From positions 1 to 64,000 of the forward strand of contig CALKJI010000007.1 of the NCBI GenBank assembly GCA_937995655.1: 64,000 nucleotides of DNA, in the 5' to 3' direction. Below, piece after piece: positions 4,610 through 12,735 of this stretch; position 1 is the first letter of the stretch; the number at the start of each line of letters is the position of its first letter. A program made the position numbers and the translations under genes. The DNA comes from an uncultured Pseudothermotoga sp. GTDB lineage: Bacteria; Thermotogota; Thermotogae; Thermotogales; DSM-5069. The notes under the pieces are model-generated. The model was not told where the DNA came from. It ran no database searches and was given only the letters and a program-made list of their open reading frames with translations.

Positions 4610-4664
4610 TTGACAGCCTATTGAAATGTGGTAAAATAATTTCGATAGCTAGCGAAATAATTTT
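4610..4664 (+). promoter_or_regulatory. Promoter with overlapping 32-bp dyad operator for the BMP-ABC/kinase operon
   Basis: TTGACA (4610-4615), 16 bases and TAAAAT (4632-4637) make a near-consensus promoter. A dyad centred at 4648.5 covers 4633-4664, with only two mismatched pairs (4638/4659 and 4645/4652). Its half-sites read AAAAT-ATTTCG and CGAAAT-ATTTT around a TAGCTA core. It overlaps the -10 box and start point, the usual place for a repressor. Candidate binders are the RpiR protein inside the operon or the GntR protein encoded divergently. Confidence 0.78.
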
Positions 4665-4717
4665 GACTATCTCCCTTACACCTACATAATCAATTTTACA
4701 ACAGGGGTGATTATAAA

Positions 4718-5701
4718 ATGAAAAGGTTTTTTGTAATTTTTGGAGCCATTTTTTCAGTGATCGTCGCCGGCTACAGTGTGGCGCTTTTAATAACTGGCGA
4801 AGTTGGTGGGAATGCCATATACGAAATGATGGTTGAAGGTGCCATGAGGGCATCAAAAGAACTTGGTTTTGATGTGAAAATCGTCGAAGGTGGTTATAAC
4901 TCATCAAAATGGGAACCCTTGTTGATCAGCCTCGCGTCGACCAAGTCCTATGACTTGATAGTTACCTTCACCGAAGGAATGCCAAAGAGCGTTGAAAAGG
5001 CTGCCAAAATGTTCCCAAGTCAAAAATTCGCACTCATAGATGGTATAGCTGCCAATCTTCCCAATCTTTATTCACTGGGCTTCAGGGACGAAGAAATGAC
5101 ATATCTTGCAGGTTACTTCGCGGGCCTTGTAACAAAGAGCAAACTCCCTGGAGTCAACCCAGACTTAAAAATCGGAATGATTGCAGGCGATATCTATCCA
5201 GCCATGACCGAGAAGATGAAGCCTGCCTATGAAAATGGCGCAAAGGCTGTCGATGAAAAGATCCAAGTTCTGTTCTCCGTAGCAGGAAGTTGGGCCGATC
5301 CAAACAAAGGTGCCCAATTGGCTCAAATTCAGTTCGCACAAGGAGTGGATGTGATCTTTTTGGTTGCTGGTGGTACAGGAATAGGGGCTATTCAGAAAGC
5401 CAAAGAATTTGGTAAGTATATAGTCGGTGTTGACGCGAATATCATAGATCTGGCACCAGATGTGATCTTGGCTTGTGCGTTGAAAAAAGCAGATATAGCT
5501 ATTCATAACGTTCTCACAAGAGCCTATCAAGGTAAATTACCCTTTGGACAGAGTGAACGATGGGGAATAAAGGAAGGTGTCATCGGTTTCACCTTCGAAG
5601 ATCCTTATTATCTACAGAACGTGCCAGAGGAAATTAGGCAAAGGATGCTCGATCTGTTTGAAAGGTTAAGGCAAGGGGCAGTCAATGTTCTTGGTGAGTG
5701 A
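4718..5701 (+). CDS. BMP/PnrA-type ABC substrate-binding protein
   Basis: A periplasmic binding protein of 327 residues from the basic-membrane-protein family, which in studied cases binds purine nucleosides. A signal peptide of about 19 residues precedes VALLITGEVGGNAIYEMM, the N-terminal strand and ligand loop of the fold. FALIDGIAANLPNLYSLGFR and EEMTYLAGYFAGL are the family's most recognisable stretches. There is no lipobox cysteine, as is common in Thermotogales. It is the first gene of a six-gene operon and overlaps the ATPase gene. Because a FGGY sugar kinase closes the operon, the ligand may be a sugar or polyol rather than a nucleoside (inference). Confidence 0.85.
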   Translation: MKRFFVIFGAIFSVIVAGYSVALLITGEVGGNAIYEMMVEGAMRASKELGFDVKIVEGGYNSSKWEPLLISLASTKSYDLIVTFTEGMPKSVEKAAKMFPSQKFALIDGIAANLPNLYSLGFRDEEMTYLAGYFAGLVTKSKLPGVNPDLKIGMIAGDIYPAMTEKMKPAYENGAKAVDEKIQVLFSVAGSWADPNKGAQLAQIQFAQGVDVIFLVAGGTGIGAIQKAKEFGKYIVGVDANIIDLAPDVILACALKKADIAIHNVLTRAYQGKLPFGQSERWGIKEGVIGFTFEDPYYLQNVPEEIRQRMLDLFERLRQGAVNVLGE

Positions 5702-7223
5702 AATGAGCCCACACATAGAAATGAGGGAAATTTACAAAACCTTTCCCATTAGTCATACCATAGCATTGAAAGGTGCCAACCTTTGTGTGGAAAGGGGTAC
5801 AATCCACGCATTACTTGGAGAAAACGGTGCAGGTAAAACAACTTTGATGAAGATTTTGTGTGGATTAGAAAGAATGGACAGTGGAAAGATATTTTTGAAA
5901 GCTAAACAAGTAAGTATAAGAAACCATCGCGACGCATTAAAGTATGGCATAGCCATGGTTCATCAGAATCTGAACTTGATAGAAGATTTCACGGCTTTGG
6001 AAAACATCATCTTACAAAAGATGCCTCCAAAGTACCTTCTGTTTTTCGATTCCACGAAAGCCAAGCAGATGATCAACAATGTCATGGAGCAAAACGGTAT
6101 CTTCGTCGATCTACAAAAGAAAGCAGCTGATTTGCCCGTTGCCGAGAGACAGAAGGTAGAGATACTGAGGGTACTGTACCTTGGTGCAGAGATTTTGATC
6201 TTTGATGAACCCACTTCTTACCTCAATGAATTGGAATCTGAGCAGTTTTTCAAAGTGATGAAGAAACTGAAAGAATCTGGAAAAACCATCATCTTCATCA
6301 CACACAACGCCCAGGATGCCCTTGCTGTGTCAGACAAAATAACAATTTTGAGAAACGGTGTCACTGTGTACTCTTCAAAGGGAAGTAGACCTTCCTTGAG
6401 CGAACTCACTCTCATGATGGCTGGTGAAACAGAGATCGTCCGTAAGCAATTTACTGGCTATGGTTCAAAGAAGGTACTACAGGTTGAAAACCTCGTCTTC
6501 AAAAGCGAAAGGCAAATCGTTGGACCGATTTCCTTCGAAATCAAAGAGGGTGAGATATTGGGGCTGATAGGTTTTAATTCATCTGGTGCTGTGGAATTGA
6601 CTGAGGCTATCGCCGGTATGAGGAAAACATTAAACGGCAAAATCACCTTCCATGGAAAGGATATAACAGAAAAAGATATGGCTGAGCGAAGAAAGCTTGG
6701 TGTGGGTTATATTCCTCAGAAAAAGACACAGGTTGGTCTTTCGACAAAGCTCCCTGTGGCAGAAAACTTGATCATTAACAAGTATAAAGAACTTTCCTGC
6801 CTTGGTTGGCTAAAGTACAAGGAGATCGGAGAGTGGTCTAATAAGCTCATAGAAGAATTTGAAATCAAAGTCTTTTCCCCTTGGCAGCCAGTTGAGACTC
6901 TATCAGGTGGAAATATGCAACGGGTCGTCATAGCAAGAGAAGTAAGATCAATGCCAAGATTGTTGATTGCCTGTGATCCTACGTCTGGACTGGATTTGAG
7001 ATCGGTGAATTTCGTACACAAAAAGTTTTTGAAACTGTGTGAAGAAGGATCATCGATTCTTATGTACTCAAGTGATCTTGATGAGATACTGAAGATCTGT
7101 GACAGAATACTCATAATGTCGAAGGGAAAGTTGGTTGCACAATATGAAAAAGATCCTTCCTTGACAAAGAATAAATTGATAGAGGCGATTTTGTCCAATG
7201 AGAGTAGAGCAGAACTGGCTTAG
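5685..7223 (+). CDS. ABC importer ATPase with two ABC domains (RbsA/NupO type)
   Basis: A 512-residue tandem ATPase. Domain 1 has a perfect Walker A (GENGAGKTT) and Walker B (LIFDEPTS) but a weak signature (LPVAERQ). Domain 2 has a degenerate P-loop (GFNSSGAVE), a good signature (LSGGNMQRV) and LLIACDPTSG. This asymmetry is normal for RbsA-like ATPases, which have one competent site. The start at 5685 has AAGGGG 7 bases upstream and overlaps the binding-protein gene by 17 bases. ATG at 5703 is an alternative. Confidence 0.9.
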   Translation: MFLVSEMSPHIEMREIYKTFPISHTIALKGANLCVERGTIHALLGENGAGKTTLMKILCGLERMDSGKIFLKAKQVSIRNHRDALKYGIAMVHQNLNLIEDFTALENIILQKMPPKYLLFFDSTKAKQMINNVMEQNGIFVDLQKKAADLPVAERQKVEILRVLYLGAEILIFDEPTSYLNELESEQFFKVMKKLKESGKTIIFITHNAQDALAVSDKITILRNGVTVYSSKGSRPSLSELTLMMAGETEIVRKQFTGYGSKKVLQVENLVFKSERQIVGPISFEIKEGEILGLIGFNSSGAVELTEAIAGMRKTLNGKITFHGKDITEKDMAERRKLGVGYIPQKKTQVGLSTKLPVAENLIINKYKELSCLGWLKYKEIGEWSNKLIEEFEIKVFSPWQPVETLSGGNMQRVVIAREVRSMPRLLIACDPTSGLDLRSVNFVHKKFLKLCEEGSSILMYSSDLDEILKICDRILIMSKGKLVAQYEKDPSLTKNKLIEAILSNESRAELA

Positions 7224-8226
7224 AGTGTTTCTCTTTACAACAATAGTAGCCTTTGTGTGTGGTTCTGTAATAATTGTGTTCACAAGCAAAAATCCATCGC
7301 TAGCAATGAGATGGTTCTACCTCGGTCCTTTGAGCAACGGCTATTTTTTTGGAAACATGCTCAGTGGTTCCATACCGCTGATTTTCACTGGACTTGCCGC
7401 CGTGATAGCCTTTTGTGCTGGGACATTCAATCTTGGGCTGGAAGGACAGCTGTACTTTGGTACGCTCTGGGGAACCTTTGTAGCCATCAATCTGACAGAT
7501 ACTTCGACTCTTTTGGCTATGTTGATAGCCTTCAGCGTTGGAGCCCTCATAGGAGCTCTGTGCGGTCTTTTGAAGATCGTTTTAAAGGTAGATGAGCTAC
7601 TCTCTTCCTTTTTGATAAGTCTTGCTTTGATTCACATCACAGATTACTTTTTGAACAACCCTCTGAGAGACCCGTTGGCTGGTCTTTCGGCAACAAAGTA
7701 CGTGAAGGAATCTATCATGTTTTCAAAGATATTGCCTCCTTCGAACCTACACAGTGGTATCTTCATAGCGGTTACGGCTGTGTTTTTGACCTATCTTTTA
7801 ATGAACTTCACAACCTTTGGGTATCAAATCAAAGTAACAGGTTCTAACTATGAATTTGCCCGATATGGGGGCATAAAGGTCTATAGAGTCTGGCTTTCAG
7901 CACTGTTCTTAAGCGGTGGAATGGCTGGGCTTGGCGGCATGATAGATGTTTTGGGTGTGCATGGGCGTATGATAAGAGGTTTCTCCTTCGGTTATGGTTT
8001 TAACGGCATAGCTGTCGCGTTGATCGCAAGAAATAATCCAATATTTGTTATACCAGCTGCATTGTTGTTCTCGTACCTTGAAATGGGAACACAGATCAGT
8101 TCCATCATGGCAGATATAACGCCAGAGATCTCCAAGATCCTTCAAGCCACTATATTTTATTTAATCACAGCAGAAAGGCTCGTACAGTTCATAGTCAGAA
8201 AGAAGGAAAAAATTCATGGCAGCTGA
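7198..8226 (+). CDS. ABC importer permease (BPD_transp_2, YufP type)
   Basis: An integral membrane protein of 342 residues with about nine hydrophobic helices. It carries the family stretch FCAGTFNLGLEGQLYFGTLW and, near the C-terminus, GFGYGFNGIAVALIARNNP, both typical of the larger permease in BMP-type nucleoside importers. It overlaps the ATPase gene by 26 bases and the second permease by 11, so translation is likely coupled. Confidence 0.9.
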   Translation: MRVEQNWLRVFLFTTIVAFVCGSVIIVFTSKNPSLAMRWFYLGPLSNGYFFGNMLSGSIPLIFTGLAAVIAFCAGTFNLGLEGQLYFGTLWGTFVAINLTDTSTLLAMLIAFSVGALIGALCGLLKIVLKVDELLSSFLISLALIHITDYFLNNPLRDPLAGLSATKYVKESIMFSKILPPSNLHSGIFIAVTAVFLTYLLMNFTTFGYQIKVTGSNYEFARYGGIKVYRVWLSALFLSGGMAGLGGMIDVLGVHGRMIRGFSFGYGFNGIAVALIARNNPIFVIPAALLFSYLEMGTQISSIMADITPEISKILQATIFYLITAERLVQFIVRKKEKIHGS

Positions 8227-9100
8227 TTTTGTACATTCGGTGATCTCTTCATCTGTTCCAATTATCTTGGCAGCCTTGGGAGGGATGTTCACAAATCTGG
8301 TTGGAAAGCTCAATGTAGCTCTTGAGGGCATGATGCTTACCTCGGCCTTTGTAGCTATATATGTTGCAGAAAAAACAAGAAGCCTTTCCATAGCCTTATT
8401 GGTATCGATTTTAGTGAGCTGCATCTATGCAATGTTGATCGTCCTTGCAAACAATTTGAAGGCAAATATCTTCCTTGCCGGATTGGCGATCAACCTCTTT
8501 GCAAGTGGATTGACCAGTTTTCTCATGACCTTTCTTTTTGGTTCAAAAGGTACCATTGTATCTCAAAATTCACCGATTTTGAAAAAAATAAAACTGCCAT
8601 TCATTGACAGTCTTCCCTCCTTTGGCAAGGTACTTAGTGGATACAACATCTTGGAGTATTTGACTTTTCTACTCACCTTCCTGTGTTATGTACTGATCAG
8701 CAAGACTACATTAGGGTATCGCATGAGAGCTTGTGGAAAAAATCCATCTGTTGCCAGAAACCTTGGTATAGATGTTGACAAAATGATAGTTACAAGCTTT
8801 CTCCTTTGTGGAATTTTTTCGGGATTTGCCGGTGCTATCTTGTCATTGTCCATGAGGTCCTTTGTAGCTGGTATGAGCAACAACAGAGGATGGTTGGCCC
8901 TGGTGGCAATCATAATTGGTAGGGAAAATGTCTTCAAGGTTGTTCTTACATGCTTGATCTTTGGATCGTTCAGCTTTCTTTCAGATTTTCTTCAACCATT
9001 CTCGAAGATTCCAGCTGAACTATTGATGAGTCTTCCTTATGTTCTCACAGTTGTTGTTATATTATTCTATGGTTACCTAAGAAAAGGGGTAAGGATATGA
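8216..9100 (+). CDS. ABC importer permease (BPD_transp_2, YufQ type)
   Basis: The second membrane subunit, 294 residues, starts at ATG behind AGAAGGA. It has the smaller-permease hallmark LGGMFTNLVGKLNVALEGMM near the N-terminus and the coupling stretch MRACGKNPSVARNLGI, equivalent to the EAA loop. Together with the preceding permease it forms the heterodimeric channel. Its stop overlaps the RpiR start as ATGA. Confidence 0.9.
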   Translation: MAADFVHSVISSSVPIILAALGGMFTNLVGKLNVALEGMMLTSAFVAIYVAEKTRSLSIALLVSILVSCIYAMLIVLANNLKANIFLAGLAINLFASGLTSFLMTFLFGSKGTIVSQNSPILKKIKLPFIDSLPSFGKVLSGYNILEYLTFLLTFLCYVLISKTTLGYRMRACGKNPSVARNLGIDVDKMIVTSFLLCGIFSGFAGAILSLSMRSFVAGMSNNRGWLALVAIIIGRENVFKVVLTCLIFGSFSFLSDFLQPFSKIPAELLMSLPYVLTVVVILFYGYLRKGVRI

Positions 9101-9948
9101 ATGTGGTGAGTATCTTTCAAAGCATGAAGGATATGTTGCCAACTCTCAGCGACTCACAAGGACGAATAGCAAAACTCATCATAGAACAACCCACAAAGGT
9201 ACTGCAGTTGAGCATAGTTGAATTTGCTCGTTTGTGTAAAACTTCTCCTTCAACGATCGTCGAGCTTTGCAAAAGGCTTGGTTTCTCTGGTTTCAAGACT
9301 TTGAAAATTGCGATTGCCCAGGAGATAAATTTGTTGCAGACTATGAGACCAGATCCATCAAGAATAGGTCAAATAAACAAGAACTTCTTTGACTTTGTCT
9401 TTTCAGAGCTCAAAGAATCGATTCAAATTGTGAATGAAGATCACATAAGAGATGCCGCACAGATCATTCTATCGAGCAGTATCGTTGAGATCCTCGCTTA
9501 TGGTTTTGATGCCATAGCCGGGAAGGATCTTTTTCTGAAACTGAAGGAATTTGGGTTTCAAGTAAATTTCTTTGATAATCCCTTTTTGCAAAGCATATCT
9601 GCTGCACATCTTGGCAAGAAGGGATGTGCTGTAGCCATCTCTAGCAGTCATTCTTCAACCGATCTCCTTGATTCCATGAATTACTCGAGAGGTTCCGGTG
9701 CGAAGGTCATAGCCATAGCCTCTCCCGCCTCTAGAATTGCCCAAGCCTGTGATATATTACTACCTACATATGTCAAGACCGAGGTTTTCTCAGAAGGTGG
9801 CTTTTTGACACGGTACTTACAACTACTCATTGTAGATTTTGTAATTTTGAAGATGTATGAACTGGACAAAGGGAAATTGGAAGAACATTACAGAAGCTTC
9901 GAACAGATATTGGCTCACAAAAGAAGGGGAGATAAAGGTGTATTCTGA
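9097..9948 (+). CDS. RpiR-family transcriptional regulator (HTH plus SIS)
   Basis: A sugar-phosphate-responsive regulator of 283 residues. Residues 1-77 are the HTH_6 domain (LSIVEFARLCKTSPSTIVEL, then CKRLGFSGFKTLKIAIAQE). Residues 120-255 are a SIS domain (GFDAIAGKDLFLKLKEFG, then CAVAISSSHSSTDLLDSM), which binds phosphosugars. Its place between the permeases and the sugar kinase suggests that it senses the kinase product. The dyad at 4633-4664 is the obvious operator candidate. The start GGGGTAAGGATATG overlaps the permease stop. Confidence 0.9.
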   Translation: MNVVSIFQSMKDMLPTLSDSQGRIAKLIIEQPTKVLQLSIVEFARLCKTSPSTIVELCKRLGFSGFKTLKIAIAQEINLLQTMRPDPSRIGQINKNFFDFVFSELKESIQIVNEDHIRDAAQIILSSSIVEILAYGFDAIAGKDLFLKLKEFGFQVNFFDNPFLQSISAAHLGKKGCAVAISSSHSSTDLLDSMNYSRGSGAKVIAIASPASRIAQACDILLPTYVKTEVFSEGGFLTRYLQLLIVDFVILKMYELDKGKLEEHYRSFEQILAHKRRGDKGVF

Positions 9949-11335
9949 ACTCTTTGCAGCCATAGACATTGGCACAACCAATGTCAAAGTAGCAGTCTTC
10001 GATGAAAATTTTGACACAGTCTTTGATTTTCAACGAAGGTGCACTGAATCTAAAGCAAACAACACACACGAGATTGACCCTGAAAAGTGGTGGAAGATCG
10101 TTGCACAGGGTTTTCACACTATGGACCAAAATTTGAGAAAAAAGATTGTCTCAATTTGCACAACGGGCCAGGGACCAACGACTGTACTCGTTGACAAAGA
10201 TGGTAGAACGGTCAGAAAAGCTATCACTTGGCTTGACAAAAGAGGATATGAATATATCAATTCTATAATCGAGAGAGGAATCGATGAGCAAATCGCTACG
10301 GTGATCTCCCATCTCCTTTCAATTGAAAAAGATATTGATCAAGCTTATCTGATTCAGCCTAGTGATTATATAGTTCTGAAATTGACAGGTTCCATAGTGA
10401 ACGCAACCTTTCCATTTGAAGGATATCTTCCGTGGGACAAGAAAACTTTAGAAATTTATGATTTGGATAAGACCTTCCACATACCGGAGTTGGTACCAGC
10501 AGGAAGCATAATCGGTAAGATCAGTAAAGAAGTTTCCAAAACCTTGGGACTGAACGACCAAGTTAAAATCGTCGCCGGATCTGTAGATTTTGCCATGGCC
10601 CTTGTCGGTACAGGTGTTTTGGAAGATGGGATGCTCTGCGATCGAGGCGGCACATCTCAGGGATTGACACTTTGCAGTAGGGAAAGATTTTGTTGTCAAG
10701 GTCTAATAACGGTGCCCTTTTTCATAAAGGACCATTGGAAAGTAAGCGCTGTCATGACAACGACAGGCAAGTCCTACGAATGGCTGTCACGAAATGTGAC
10801 CAGAACAAGATTGGTGGAACTATCCCAGTTGATCGCTGTGAAAAGGCCAACGAACGTGATTTTCTTGCCACATTTGAACGGTGAAAGAAGTCCATATTGG
10901 AACAAAGACCTCAAAGGAGTATTCTTTGGATTGACGCTGAAGGATGATTGGAGATCTCTTTTAGTCTCTGTAATTGAAGGTGTTGCCTATGCCATGAAAA
11001 ACATTGTTCAGATAATGGAGTCGTGTGGATACAAGATAAAGACCATCAGGGCAACAGGCGGCCAAGCCATGAATGAACTATGGAACCAGATAAAGGCAGA
11101 CGTCTTAGGAAAAGAAATTGAAGTACCAGAGGTTTTCGATTCAGAACTGCTCGGTTGCGCAATAATCTCAAAGTCGGCTTTGACGGGAGAAAGTTTCACA
11201 GAACTGAGTAAAAAGCTTGTAAAGATTTCAAAGGTATTTACCCCTTTGATGGCCAGACACGACGAATACGAAAGATGTTTCCAAGTCTACAAGGAACTGC
11301 ATGAACGCAATATCGATCTTTTCAGTAAGCTGTGA
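9938..11335 (+). CDS. FGGY-family carbohydrate kinase
   Basis: A 465-residue kinase of the xylulokinase/gluconate kinase superfamily. The phosphate-1 motif is AIDIGTTNVKVAVFDENFD at the N-terminus. ICTTGQGPTTVLVDKDGR, TWLDKRG and ATGGQAMNELWNQIKAD complete the ATPase fold and the C-terminal FGGY signature. I start it at GTG 9938, behind AAGGGGAG; longer in-frame starts lie deep inside rpiR without a ribosome site. The substrate is not clear from sequence. Operon context (BMP importer, RpiR regulator) suggests it phosphorylates the imported compound. Its TGA shares the hexamer TGATCA with the stop of the convergent gene. Confidence 0.87.
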   Translation: MYSELFAAIDIGTTNVKVAVFDENFDTVFDFQRRCTESKANNTHEIDPEKWWKIVAQGFHTMDQNLRKKIVSICTTGQGPTTVLVDKDGRTVRKAITWLDKRGYEYINSIIERGIDEQIATVISHLLSIEKDIDQAYLIQPSDYIVLKLTGSIVNATFPFEGYLPWDKKTLEIYDLDKTFHIPELVPAGSIIGKISKEVSKTLGLNDQVKIVAGSVDFAMALVGTGVLEDGMLCDRGGTSQGLTLCSRERFCCQGLITVPFFIKDHWKVSAVMTTTGKSYEWLSRNVTRTRLVELSQLIAVKRPTNVIFLPHLNGERSPYWNKDLKGVFFGLTLKDDWRSLLVSVIEGVAYAMKNIVQIMESCGYKIKTIRATGGQAMNELWNQIKADVLGKEIEVPEVFDSELLGCAIISKSALTGESFTELSKKLVKISKVFTPLMARHDEYERCFQVYKELHERNIDLFSKL

Positions 11336-12301
11336 TCATCCAAGATTACAGAAGAATTCGACGGCAGCAGAGGCATTTGCCCTCGGATTGTATCCTCCTT
11401 CTTGAATGACCAGTGTTGGCAACTTCAACTTTGAAATCTGTTTTGCAACTTTTGCATAATCTTCATCTTCTAAATTGAACTTACCAAATGGATCATCTTT
11501 ATGGGTGTCAAACCCAAGAGAGAGTATGAGCACATCAGGATAGTAATCCCTTATCTCTCTAATGGCATAAGAAAGTGCTTCAGAATACTCTTTCCAATCT
11601 GCACGTGGTGGCAAAGGTAGGTTCAAATTGAAGCCTTCACCTGCTCCTTCTCCAATCTCACTCTCTTTACCGCTGATCCAAGGATAGAAAATCTTTGGAT
11701 CACCATGAATCGATATATAGTAAACAAAATCAACGTTGTAAAAGATCTGTTGGGTCCCATTACCGTGATGAAAATCAAGATCCAGTATGACTATCCTTTC
11801 GGTCCCTCTCTTGATGAGATAACTTGCCGCAATGGCTGCATTGTTGAAATAACAATAGCCTCCGCATAAATTCCGTGTAGCATGATGCCCCGGTGGCCTA
11901 ACCAAAGCATATACGACATTAACATCTGATTCTATAATCGATGCTGCCGTCAAGGTCACATCAACGGCCCTTTTGGCAACATCAAAGGTGTTGTGAAGAA
12001 TGGGCGTTCCTGTATCAAAACACATATCATAGCCAAAGACCTCTAGTATGTATTCCTCATTCTCTGCCACTGATGCCGATTTTGTTTTCAACCACTCCAC
12101 ATATGCTTCCTCGTGTACCATGTAAAGATAATTTATGGGGAACCTACTCGGCGGAACAAGATTATCAAAACCATGAAGTATCAGTGCTTCTTTTATAGTA
12201 TCTATTCTGTCTGGTTTTTCAGGATTCTCTATGAACCTACCATTGTCGATCTCCTTGGTTGGTCTGTAAGTTGAATGGAAGGAATCATAGACTATTTTCA
12301 T
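11336..12301 (-). CDS. Histone deacetylase-superfamily amidohydrolase (acetylpolyamine/AcuC-like)
   Basis: A zinc deacetylase of 321 residues. The catalytic His pair is in RPPGHHATRNL. The zinc ligands are in DLDFHHGNGTQ and LSLGFDTHKDDPFG, and EGGYN closes the pocket, so all active-site elements are present. Bacterial members deacetylate polyamines, acetoin-pathway enzymes or unknown amides; the N-terminal region with ENPEKPDRIDTI fits the acetylpolyamine type best. The start ATG overlaps the rpiB stop by 4 bases (ATGA), with GAGGAGATGGACAA before it. It is the last gene of the metG-to-HDAC run. Confidence 0.87.
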   Translation of the reverse strand: MKIVYDSFHSTYRPTKEIDNGRFIENPEKPDRIDTIKEALILHGFDNLVPPSRFPINYLYMVHEEAYVEWLKTKSASVAENEEYILEVFGYDMCFDTGTPILHNTFDVAKRAVDVTLTAASIIESDVNVVYALVRPPGHHATRNLCGGYCYFNNAAIAASYLIKRGTERIVILDLDFHHGNGTQQIFYNVDFVYYISIHGDPKIFYPWISGKESEIGEGAGEGFNLNLPLPPRADWKEYSEALSYAIREIRDYYPDVLILSLGFDTHKDDPFGKFNLEDEDYAKVAKQISKLKLPTLVIQEGGYNPRANASAAVEFFCNLG

Positions 12302-12735
12302 TTGTCCATCTCCTCAATTTTTTTCACGCGCTTTTCATGCCTTCCTCCTTCAAATCTCTCACTCAAGAACACTTCTGTTATCCATTGTGCAAGCTCACTG
12401 CTTATGAGCCTACCGGGGAGCACAAGTACATTCGCATCGTTGTGCAATCTTGCAAGCCTTGCCATCTCAGGAAACCAACAGAGTGCGGCACGTATACCTT
12501 TTATCCTGTTTGCCGCTATACTCATTCCGATTCCAGTACCACAAATCAATATTCCAAAATCAGCGTTTTTACTTTTTATATCATTTGCTACCTTCTTTGC
12601 AAAATCTGGATAGTCAACGGAATCTTCAGAATATGTTCCCTCATCGAGAACCTTGAAATCTTTCGATATTAAAAAGCCCTTGAGGGCTTCCTTGAGCTTG
12701 AATCCAGCGTGATCCGAGCCAAGGGCAATTTTCAA
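12298..12735 (-). CDS. rpiB: Ribose 5-phosphate isomerase B
   Basis: The 145-residue enzyme interconverts ribose 5-phosphate and ribulose 5-phosphate in the pentose phosphate pathway. It has the substrate-phosphate motif GSDHAGFKLKE at the start, the catalytic Cys65 in LICGTGIGMSIAANR, and ARLHNDANVLVLPGR, all as in RpiB/LacAB proteins. The start is TTG, with GGAGAG upstream. It lies 6 bases downstream of the STAS gene. Confidence 0.93.
   Translation of the reverse strand: MKIALGSDHAGFKLKEALKGFLISKDFKVLDEGTYSEDSVDYPDFAKKVANDIKSKNADFGILICGTGIGMSIAANRIKGIRAALCWFPEMARLARLHNDANVLVLPGRLISSELAQWITEVFLSERFEGGRHEKRVKKIEEMDK

Follow-up and report, generated by a model that had tools for sequence, protein, structure and literature searches.

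We analysed a stretch of 64,000 nucleotides from an uncultured Pseudothermotoga sp. (contig CALKJI010000007.1 of assembly GCA_937995655.1; hereafter the window), in which six genes on the + strand, at positions 4718-11335, encode a BMP-family lipoprotein, an ATP-binding cassette (ABC) ATPase, two permeases, an RpiR-family regulator and an FGGY carbohydrate kinase. Annotations usually treat BMP proteins as receptors for nucleosides. The receptor encoded here belongs to a clade of Thermotogota proteins with an altered ligand pocket, and its operon, kinase and regulator included, recurs in the same gene order in relatives. On balance, we lean towards a sugar-like cargo for this operon, namely a free pentose or ketose, or a polyol. 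The window (GC content 41%) lies on contig C7 of genome G000 (2.11 Mb, with a completeness rating of 99.86%), and its named relatives in a contig comparison are metagenome-assembled genomes of Thermotogota.

Organization and control of the operon

The initial annotation of this locus had described a BMP-type importer joined to an FGGY kinase and an RpiR regulator instead of nucleoside enzymes. Each of these parts was located by domain scans (Table 1), and no nucleoside phosphorylase or hydrolase was found in the operon by domain and family-model scans, which bears out the described gene content. Most adjacent genes overlap by a few bases, in an operon-like manner, and a single promoter serves the whole set. 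The kinase most likely starts at the GTG at 9938, downstream of AAGAAGGGGAG and within the 3' end of the RpiR gene.

Table 1. Promoter, operator-like site and genes of the BMP operon (positions in the window)
Feature	Position	Strand	Remarks
Sigma-70-type promoter	4610..4637	+	TTGACA-16-TAAAAT, TG ahead of the second hexamer; 11/12 positions match
Putative RpiR operator ATTTCGATAGCTAGCGAAATAATTTTG	4639..4665	+	Near-palindrome plus a third half-site, just downstream of the promoter
BMP-family substrate-binding lipoprotein, RfuA branch	4718..5701	+	PF02608; pocket I34 Y35 D108 K166 W192 V238 D239 K256
ABC ATPase, duplicated, sugar/nucleoside type	5703..7223	+	Open reading frame open from 5685, alternative start
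Permease 1	7198..8226	+	BPD_transp_2
Permease 2	8216..9100	+	BPD_transp_2
RpiR-family regulator	9097..9948	+	HTH_6 and SIS domain with AISSSHSSTDLLD
FGGY carbohydrate kinase, clade without known substrate	9938..11335	+	FGGY_N and FGGY_C; GTG start; open reading frame open from 9857

The regulator is a member of the RpiR family by its HTH_6 domain and by a SIS domain with an intact Ser-rich motif of the phosphosugar type, AISSSHSSTDLLD, which is conserved among relatives and which we take to have a role in phosphosugar recognition. A TTTCG block similar to that of the window follows a TAAAAT-like hexamer upstream of the operon in all 10 family f1 genomes read. A whole-genome pattern search of G000 returned the operator-like site with zero mismatches only at 4639-4665; an overlapping reverse match carries two mismatches, and the other, separate matches carry three and are no commoner than those of a reversed-pattern control. 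Since this is the sole zero-mismatch site in the genome, RpiR, the putative protein binding it, probably controls its own operon only, and a wider regulon was rejected on the same count.

The operon is flanked upstream by divergent DUF1292 and GntR genes. Downstream, at 11336-12735, genes for a histone deacetylase (HDAC)-like protein and for RpiB converge on its end, an arrangement common to the family f1 genomes whose contigs extend that far.

Conservation across Thermotogota

Orthologues of the BMP protein (at least 46% identity) occur in 34 of the 103 Thermotogota genomes that formed our comparison set, three of them partial, while the next matches reach 39% at most. The gene order BMP, ABC ATPase, permease 1, permease 2, RpiR and FGGY is found on one contig at the window and at 11 other loci, 12 in all, the other copies of the operon being split by contig ends. 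Kinase orthologues (at least 40% identity; other matches listed, at most 32%) are present in 17 genomes, every one of which falls within the 34 that carry the BMP clade (Fisher p 2e-10, phylogeny ignored).

The arrangement is looser in genera g25-g27, where the BMP and RpiR genes adjoin in the 11 loci read and the ABC ATPase and permease genes are located apart from the BMP gene in 13 genomes. Several Kosmotogaceae permease loci have rpoC on one side and an M32 peptidase gene on the other (proteins checked only in L163, L164 and L168). We considered such loci as a clue to the substrate and set them aside, as neither the rpoC and M32 peptidase neighbours nor a nucleotidase neighbour named one.

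Fold and pocket of the BMP receptor

The BMP protein scores 207.3 bits against PF02608 (gathering cut-off 24.1), and its AlphaFold model has a pLDDT (predicted local distance difference test) of 94.3. In VIA-align comparisons the model matched riboflavin-bound RfuA (PDB 4iil) best, with a Z of 42.8 and 34% identity, followed by PnrA with a Z of 37.0; the list was led by RfuA, PnrA, Lbp, BmpD and other BMP proteins (Z 31 to 42.8), sugar-binding proteins reaching a Z of 23 at most. A single-sequence search likewise ranked RfuA (183 bits) above PnrA (115 bits), whereas a search with a 41-row profile placed Lbp (226 bits), RfuA (226 bits) and PnrA (222 bits) level. In the BMP tree, RfuA joins the Thermotogota clade with a support of 100/99, a grouping present in 100% of 200 bootstrap trees, on a very long branch (3.57). 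A vitamin B6 importer was also considered and rejected, for the scores against the four NCBIfam 'putative B6' ABC transporter models NF047927-NF047930 stay far under their cut-offs (46/400, 361/670, 122/400 and 116/465 bits, respectively).

The residues lining BMP nucleoside pockets are described in PMC13325309 and PMC7093131, from which we took the pocket positions, and the BMP proteins were aligned with five solved proteins. Window residues I34, Y35, D108, K166, W192, V238, D239 and K256 correspond to BmpA F27, N28, D98, F151, F176, V224, D225 and K242. The alignment covered 30 of the 34 clade members (G005, G024, G031 and G032 were omitted, three of them being partial). Phe27 is replaced by Ile and Phe176 by Trp in 30/30, and position 151 is non-Phe in 30/30, so that the window protein lacks the aromatic Phe27/Phe176 base sandwich of PnrA/BmpA-type nucleoside receptors. 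By comparison, Phe occupies positions 27 and 151 in each of the 11 further BMP proteins examined from Thermotogota, and position 176 is taken by Phe or Trp. The ribose contacts are mostly kept: Lys242 in 30/30, Asp98 in 28/30 and Asp225 in 28/30, with all three present in the window. The BMP proteins of G033 and G034 (L054:4659-5648 and L055:2175-3164) carry Glu and Asn at the Asp108 and Asp239 positions, a possible change of ligand.

The kept ribose contacts leave room for a nucleoside or another riboside as cargo, in which Ile34 and Trp192 would read the ligand instead of the Phe pair and the sugar part would be activated later. Two loci agree with this. In G021 (L164:4910-6703), a gene for a secreted LysM protein resembling 5'-nucleotidases/2',3'-cyclic-nucleotide phosphodiesterases ends 79 bases before the ABC-permease genes, and in G007 a ribokinase gene follows the FGGY gene. 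The former link is seen at one of 13 loci, however, and the latter in one genome. The window operon holds no nucleoside enzyme, and its six genes recur in unchanged order in the other 11 complete operons. G000 has, moreover, a separate BMP system that is wired to nucleoside enzymes: the paralogue L071 (L071:5246-7998, contig C9 near 170 kb) has a Phe-type pocket and lies directly behind genes for a nucleoside hydrolase (370 bits) and a PNP_UDP phosphorylase (119 bits), a textbook nucleoside system and a within-genome contrast to the operon of the window. Given the loss of the Phe pair and the lack of a linked nucleoside enzyme, this explanation was lowered from first choice, and we now regard it as improbable.

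On contig C9 near 61.5 kb, an ABC gene cluster of G000 (L072:6557-7546, 11089-12417) encodes another BMP paralogue, whose pocket reads F Y D F W V D K, and has an ADP-ribosylglycohydrolase gene (PF03747) downstream; this cluster is perhaps an uptake system for ADP-ribose or ribosides.

The FGGY kinase

The kinase contains FGGY_N and FGGY_C domains and keeps the catalytic Asp. Its best model is that of XylB/xylulokinase (TIGR01312), against which it scores 226.4 bits, below the cut-off of 380.25. The structure model (pLDDT 87.8) has a fold like that of E. coli XylB (2itm), with 24% identity and a TM of 0.80. XylB Met77-His78, two residues that presumably have a role in that enzyme, are replaced by Gly-Pro. 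The 17 clade members form one group (support 100/100) in a tree that also held 13 paralogues from Thermotogota, four kinases encoded on plasmids and the E. coli enzymes XylB, LyxK, LsrK, YgcE, FucK, RhaB, GlpK and AraB, but no references for D-ribulokinase or erythritol kinase. A plain xylulokinase was rejected in view of the score, the Gly-Pro motif and the separate clade; judged by family, the protein is a sugar kinase, in a clade of its own. Specificity in FGGY kinases follows a few residues plus context, according to PMC3245297. Two contexts occurred once each: NagB-like and SIS proteins are neighbours of the G001 kinase, and the ribokinase encoded after the FGGY gene of G007 scores 308.6 bits (cut-off 299.65).

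Aldolase and dehydrogenase genes in relatives

A gene for a DhnA/LsrF-type aldolase lies upstream at the locus in seven relatives from four families (in G007 via two contigs, in G034 via a partial aldolase gene where the contig stops and in G003 via 34 residues), with a Zn-dehydrogenase gene beside it in five of the seven. A pairing of aldolase and FGGY kinase was met on plasmids, where eight annotated aldolase contexts, picked among the 15 best of 279 records, were read. An FGGY kinase is encoded beside the aldolase or one gene from it in five of the eight, two of which (L149 and L185) have a Zn-dehydrogenase nearby as well; the remaining contexts hold a PfkB kinase (L183), an acid-sugar kinase (L186) or none (L184). 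As five of eight plasmid contexts pair them, the aldolase and FGGY module is a recurrent carbohydrate theme, accompanied there by other transporters. At L185:5327-9074, on a Rubrobacter plasmid, FGGY kinase, DhnA-type aldolase and zinc-dependent dehydrogenase genes are clustered, with transketolase and rpiB genes nearby. Among plasmid matches to the BMP protein, the single annotated context read holds nucleoside hydrolases. Matches in Embleya (to the aldolase), Niveispirillum (to the BMP protein) and one Rhizobium record (to the kinase) fell on records that carry no gene annotation.

An importer, an FGGY kinase and an LsrF-like aldolase would also make up an uptake system for autoinducer-2 (AI-2) analogous to Lsr, the aldolase and kinase sharing superfamilies with LsrF and LsrK. 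The kinase, however, scores 89 bits against the LsrK model (cut-off 528) and does not group with LsrK in the tree. LuxS was found in 0/103 genomes, against 5/14 for the search control. AI-2 uptake was rejected on this absence and appears very improbable.

Proposed function

Under our favoured reading of a sugar-like cargo, the BMP lipoprotein would capture a ribose-like small molecule (a free pentulose, a pentose or a polyol), held by Asp108, Asp239 and Lys256 together with Trp192 in place of the Phe-Phe base sandwich. Once carried in by the ABC ATPase and the two permeases, this ligand would be phosphorylated by the FGGY kinase. RpiR would sit on the operator behind the promoter until the phosphosugar, as the predicted effector, released it via the SIS domain. 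In lineages that encode the DhnA/LsrF-type class I aldolase and the Zn-dependent polyol/sugar dehydrogenase, the ketose phosphate may be split into triose phosphate and an aldehyde, the accessory enzymes presumably varying by lineage. A broader and more tentative proposal, to which we give somewhat less than even credence, is that a BMP branch containing RfuA and spread over several Thermotogota families left aromatic ligands for a free ketose or polyol, with a new FGGY kinase activating it and the Zn-dehydrogenase/DhnA-aldolase breakdown kept or lost by lineage. RfuA is the sole solved member of that branch found here.

Several observations weigh against a sugar-like cargo. Half of the clade genomes (17 of 34) showed no kinase orthologue: 14 belong to genera g25-g27, and the other three (G005, G018 and G056) have contigs ending inside the locus; Kosmotogaceae retain the importer without the kinase. 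The nucleotidase-like gene of G021 points the same way, as does G000 itself, in which a genome search gave no aldolase match and dehydrogenase matches of no more than 25-30% identity. RfuA, finally, is the nearest solved relative by sequence, fold and tree and has Val, Tyr, Asp, Thr, Trp, Phe, Asp and Met at the eight pocket positions, sharing the Val/Ile, Tyr, non-Phe and Trp features with the clade. Because RfuA has these changes and yet binds riboflavin, an aromatic flavin can bind without the Phe pair, whose loss would then be no proof of a non-aromatic ligand.

The strongest rival explanation is a riboflavin or flavin importer: the BMP protein would act as the RfuA of a thermophile, supplying auxotrophic Thermotogota, and the co-transcribed kinase and regulator would serve another purpose. 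Lumazine synthase (ribH) was not found in G000, despite its 99.86% completeness, although the search control was found in 14/14 genomes; this absence runs counter to a sugar-like cargo. It was likewise not found in 31/34 clade genomes, versus 35/69 others (p 6e-5, phylogeny ignored), which suggests widespread riboflavin auxotrophy. The ribH contrast was computed without phylogenetic correction, however, and those 35 ribH-less genomes do not carry the BMP clade. G057 has both ribH and a flavin mononucleotide (FMN) riboswitch, yet keeps the whole operon, the pocket and the operator-like site. A search of G000 with stricter filters gave no FMN riboswitch, and the window had no match in Rfam. At the pocket, the window protein differs from RfuA by V238 instead of Phe, K256 instead of Met, Ile instead of Val and Lys instead of Thr, and the very long branch of RfuA tempers its proximity. 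Flavin uptake is not known to involve an FGGY kinase together with a regulator of the sugar-phosphate type. All in all, we consider a flavin cargo unlikely.

The initial annotation had started from BMP/PnrA as a nucleoside family, which is true of its nucleoside receptors but too narrow, since the family also comprises RfuA, AtzT (purine/atrazine-related) and the 'putative B6' set of NCBIfam. The comparison with PnrA-type pockets that it called for gave a divided answer, the Phe-Phe sandwich being gone in 30/30 and the ribose-contact Asp/Asp/Lys mostly kept. Its suggestion of a free sugar or polyol as cargo gains from the conserved linkage to the FGGY kinase and the SIS-domain regulator, from the lost Phe pair and from the aldolase and dehydrogenase of relatives, and loses from RfuA and from the clade genomes in which no kinase orthologue was seen.

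If a sugar-like cargo is correct, the BMP family would be split by ligand class, which would supply annotators with a residue rule, help to assign a substrate to the FGGY kinase clade and perhaps reveal that fermentative thermophiles have a new pathway for ketose phosphates. Should riboflavin be the cargo instead, the operon would help to explain the flavin supply of many lumazine-synthase-less Thermotogota. Our searches, limited to open-access papers, listed no description of a BMP receptor with an FGGY kinase and no details of the RfuA pocket. Sugar regulons of Thermotogales, with RpiR among the regulator families, are treated in PMC3750489, whose main text does not mention BMP.

Comparison with known systems

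RfuA (Tp0298), the riboflavin receptor of Treponema pallidum, resembles the window receptor most closely, being the best sequence and fold match on the same branch with a Val/Ile-Tyr-non-Phe-Trp pocket, and differs by its Phe and Met at V238 and K256 and by its long branch. PnrA/TmpC, BmpA, BmpD and Lbp share PF02608, the fold and most of the ribose-contact Asp/Asp/Lys with the clade, whereas the window has neither the Phe-Phe sandwich nor Phe151, nor nucleoside enzymes in its operon.

For the kinase, XylB-type FGGY enzymes such as E. coli XylB provide the nearest model and fold and the catalytic Asp, unlike which the window protein scores 226 against 380 bits, has Gly-Pro for Met-His 77-78 and falls in a clade of its own (100/100). 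The E. coli Lsr (AI-2) operon likewise combines an importer, an FGGY kinase and, as in relatives of the window, a DhnA/LsrF-type aldolase, but the window has a BMP receptor and an RpiR regulator, and LuxS was not found in the phylum sample. The FGGY and DhnA-type aldolase clusters of Rhizobium, Roseobacter-type bacteria, Klebsiella and Rubrobacter also place a kinase near an aldolase in a sugar context, sometimes with a Zn-dehydrogenase; they have other transporters where seen (sugar ABC or phosphotransferase systems), and in the tree the L145 and L149 kinases fall beside LyxK and outside the clade of the window.

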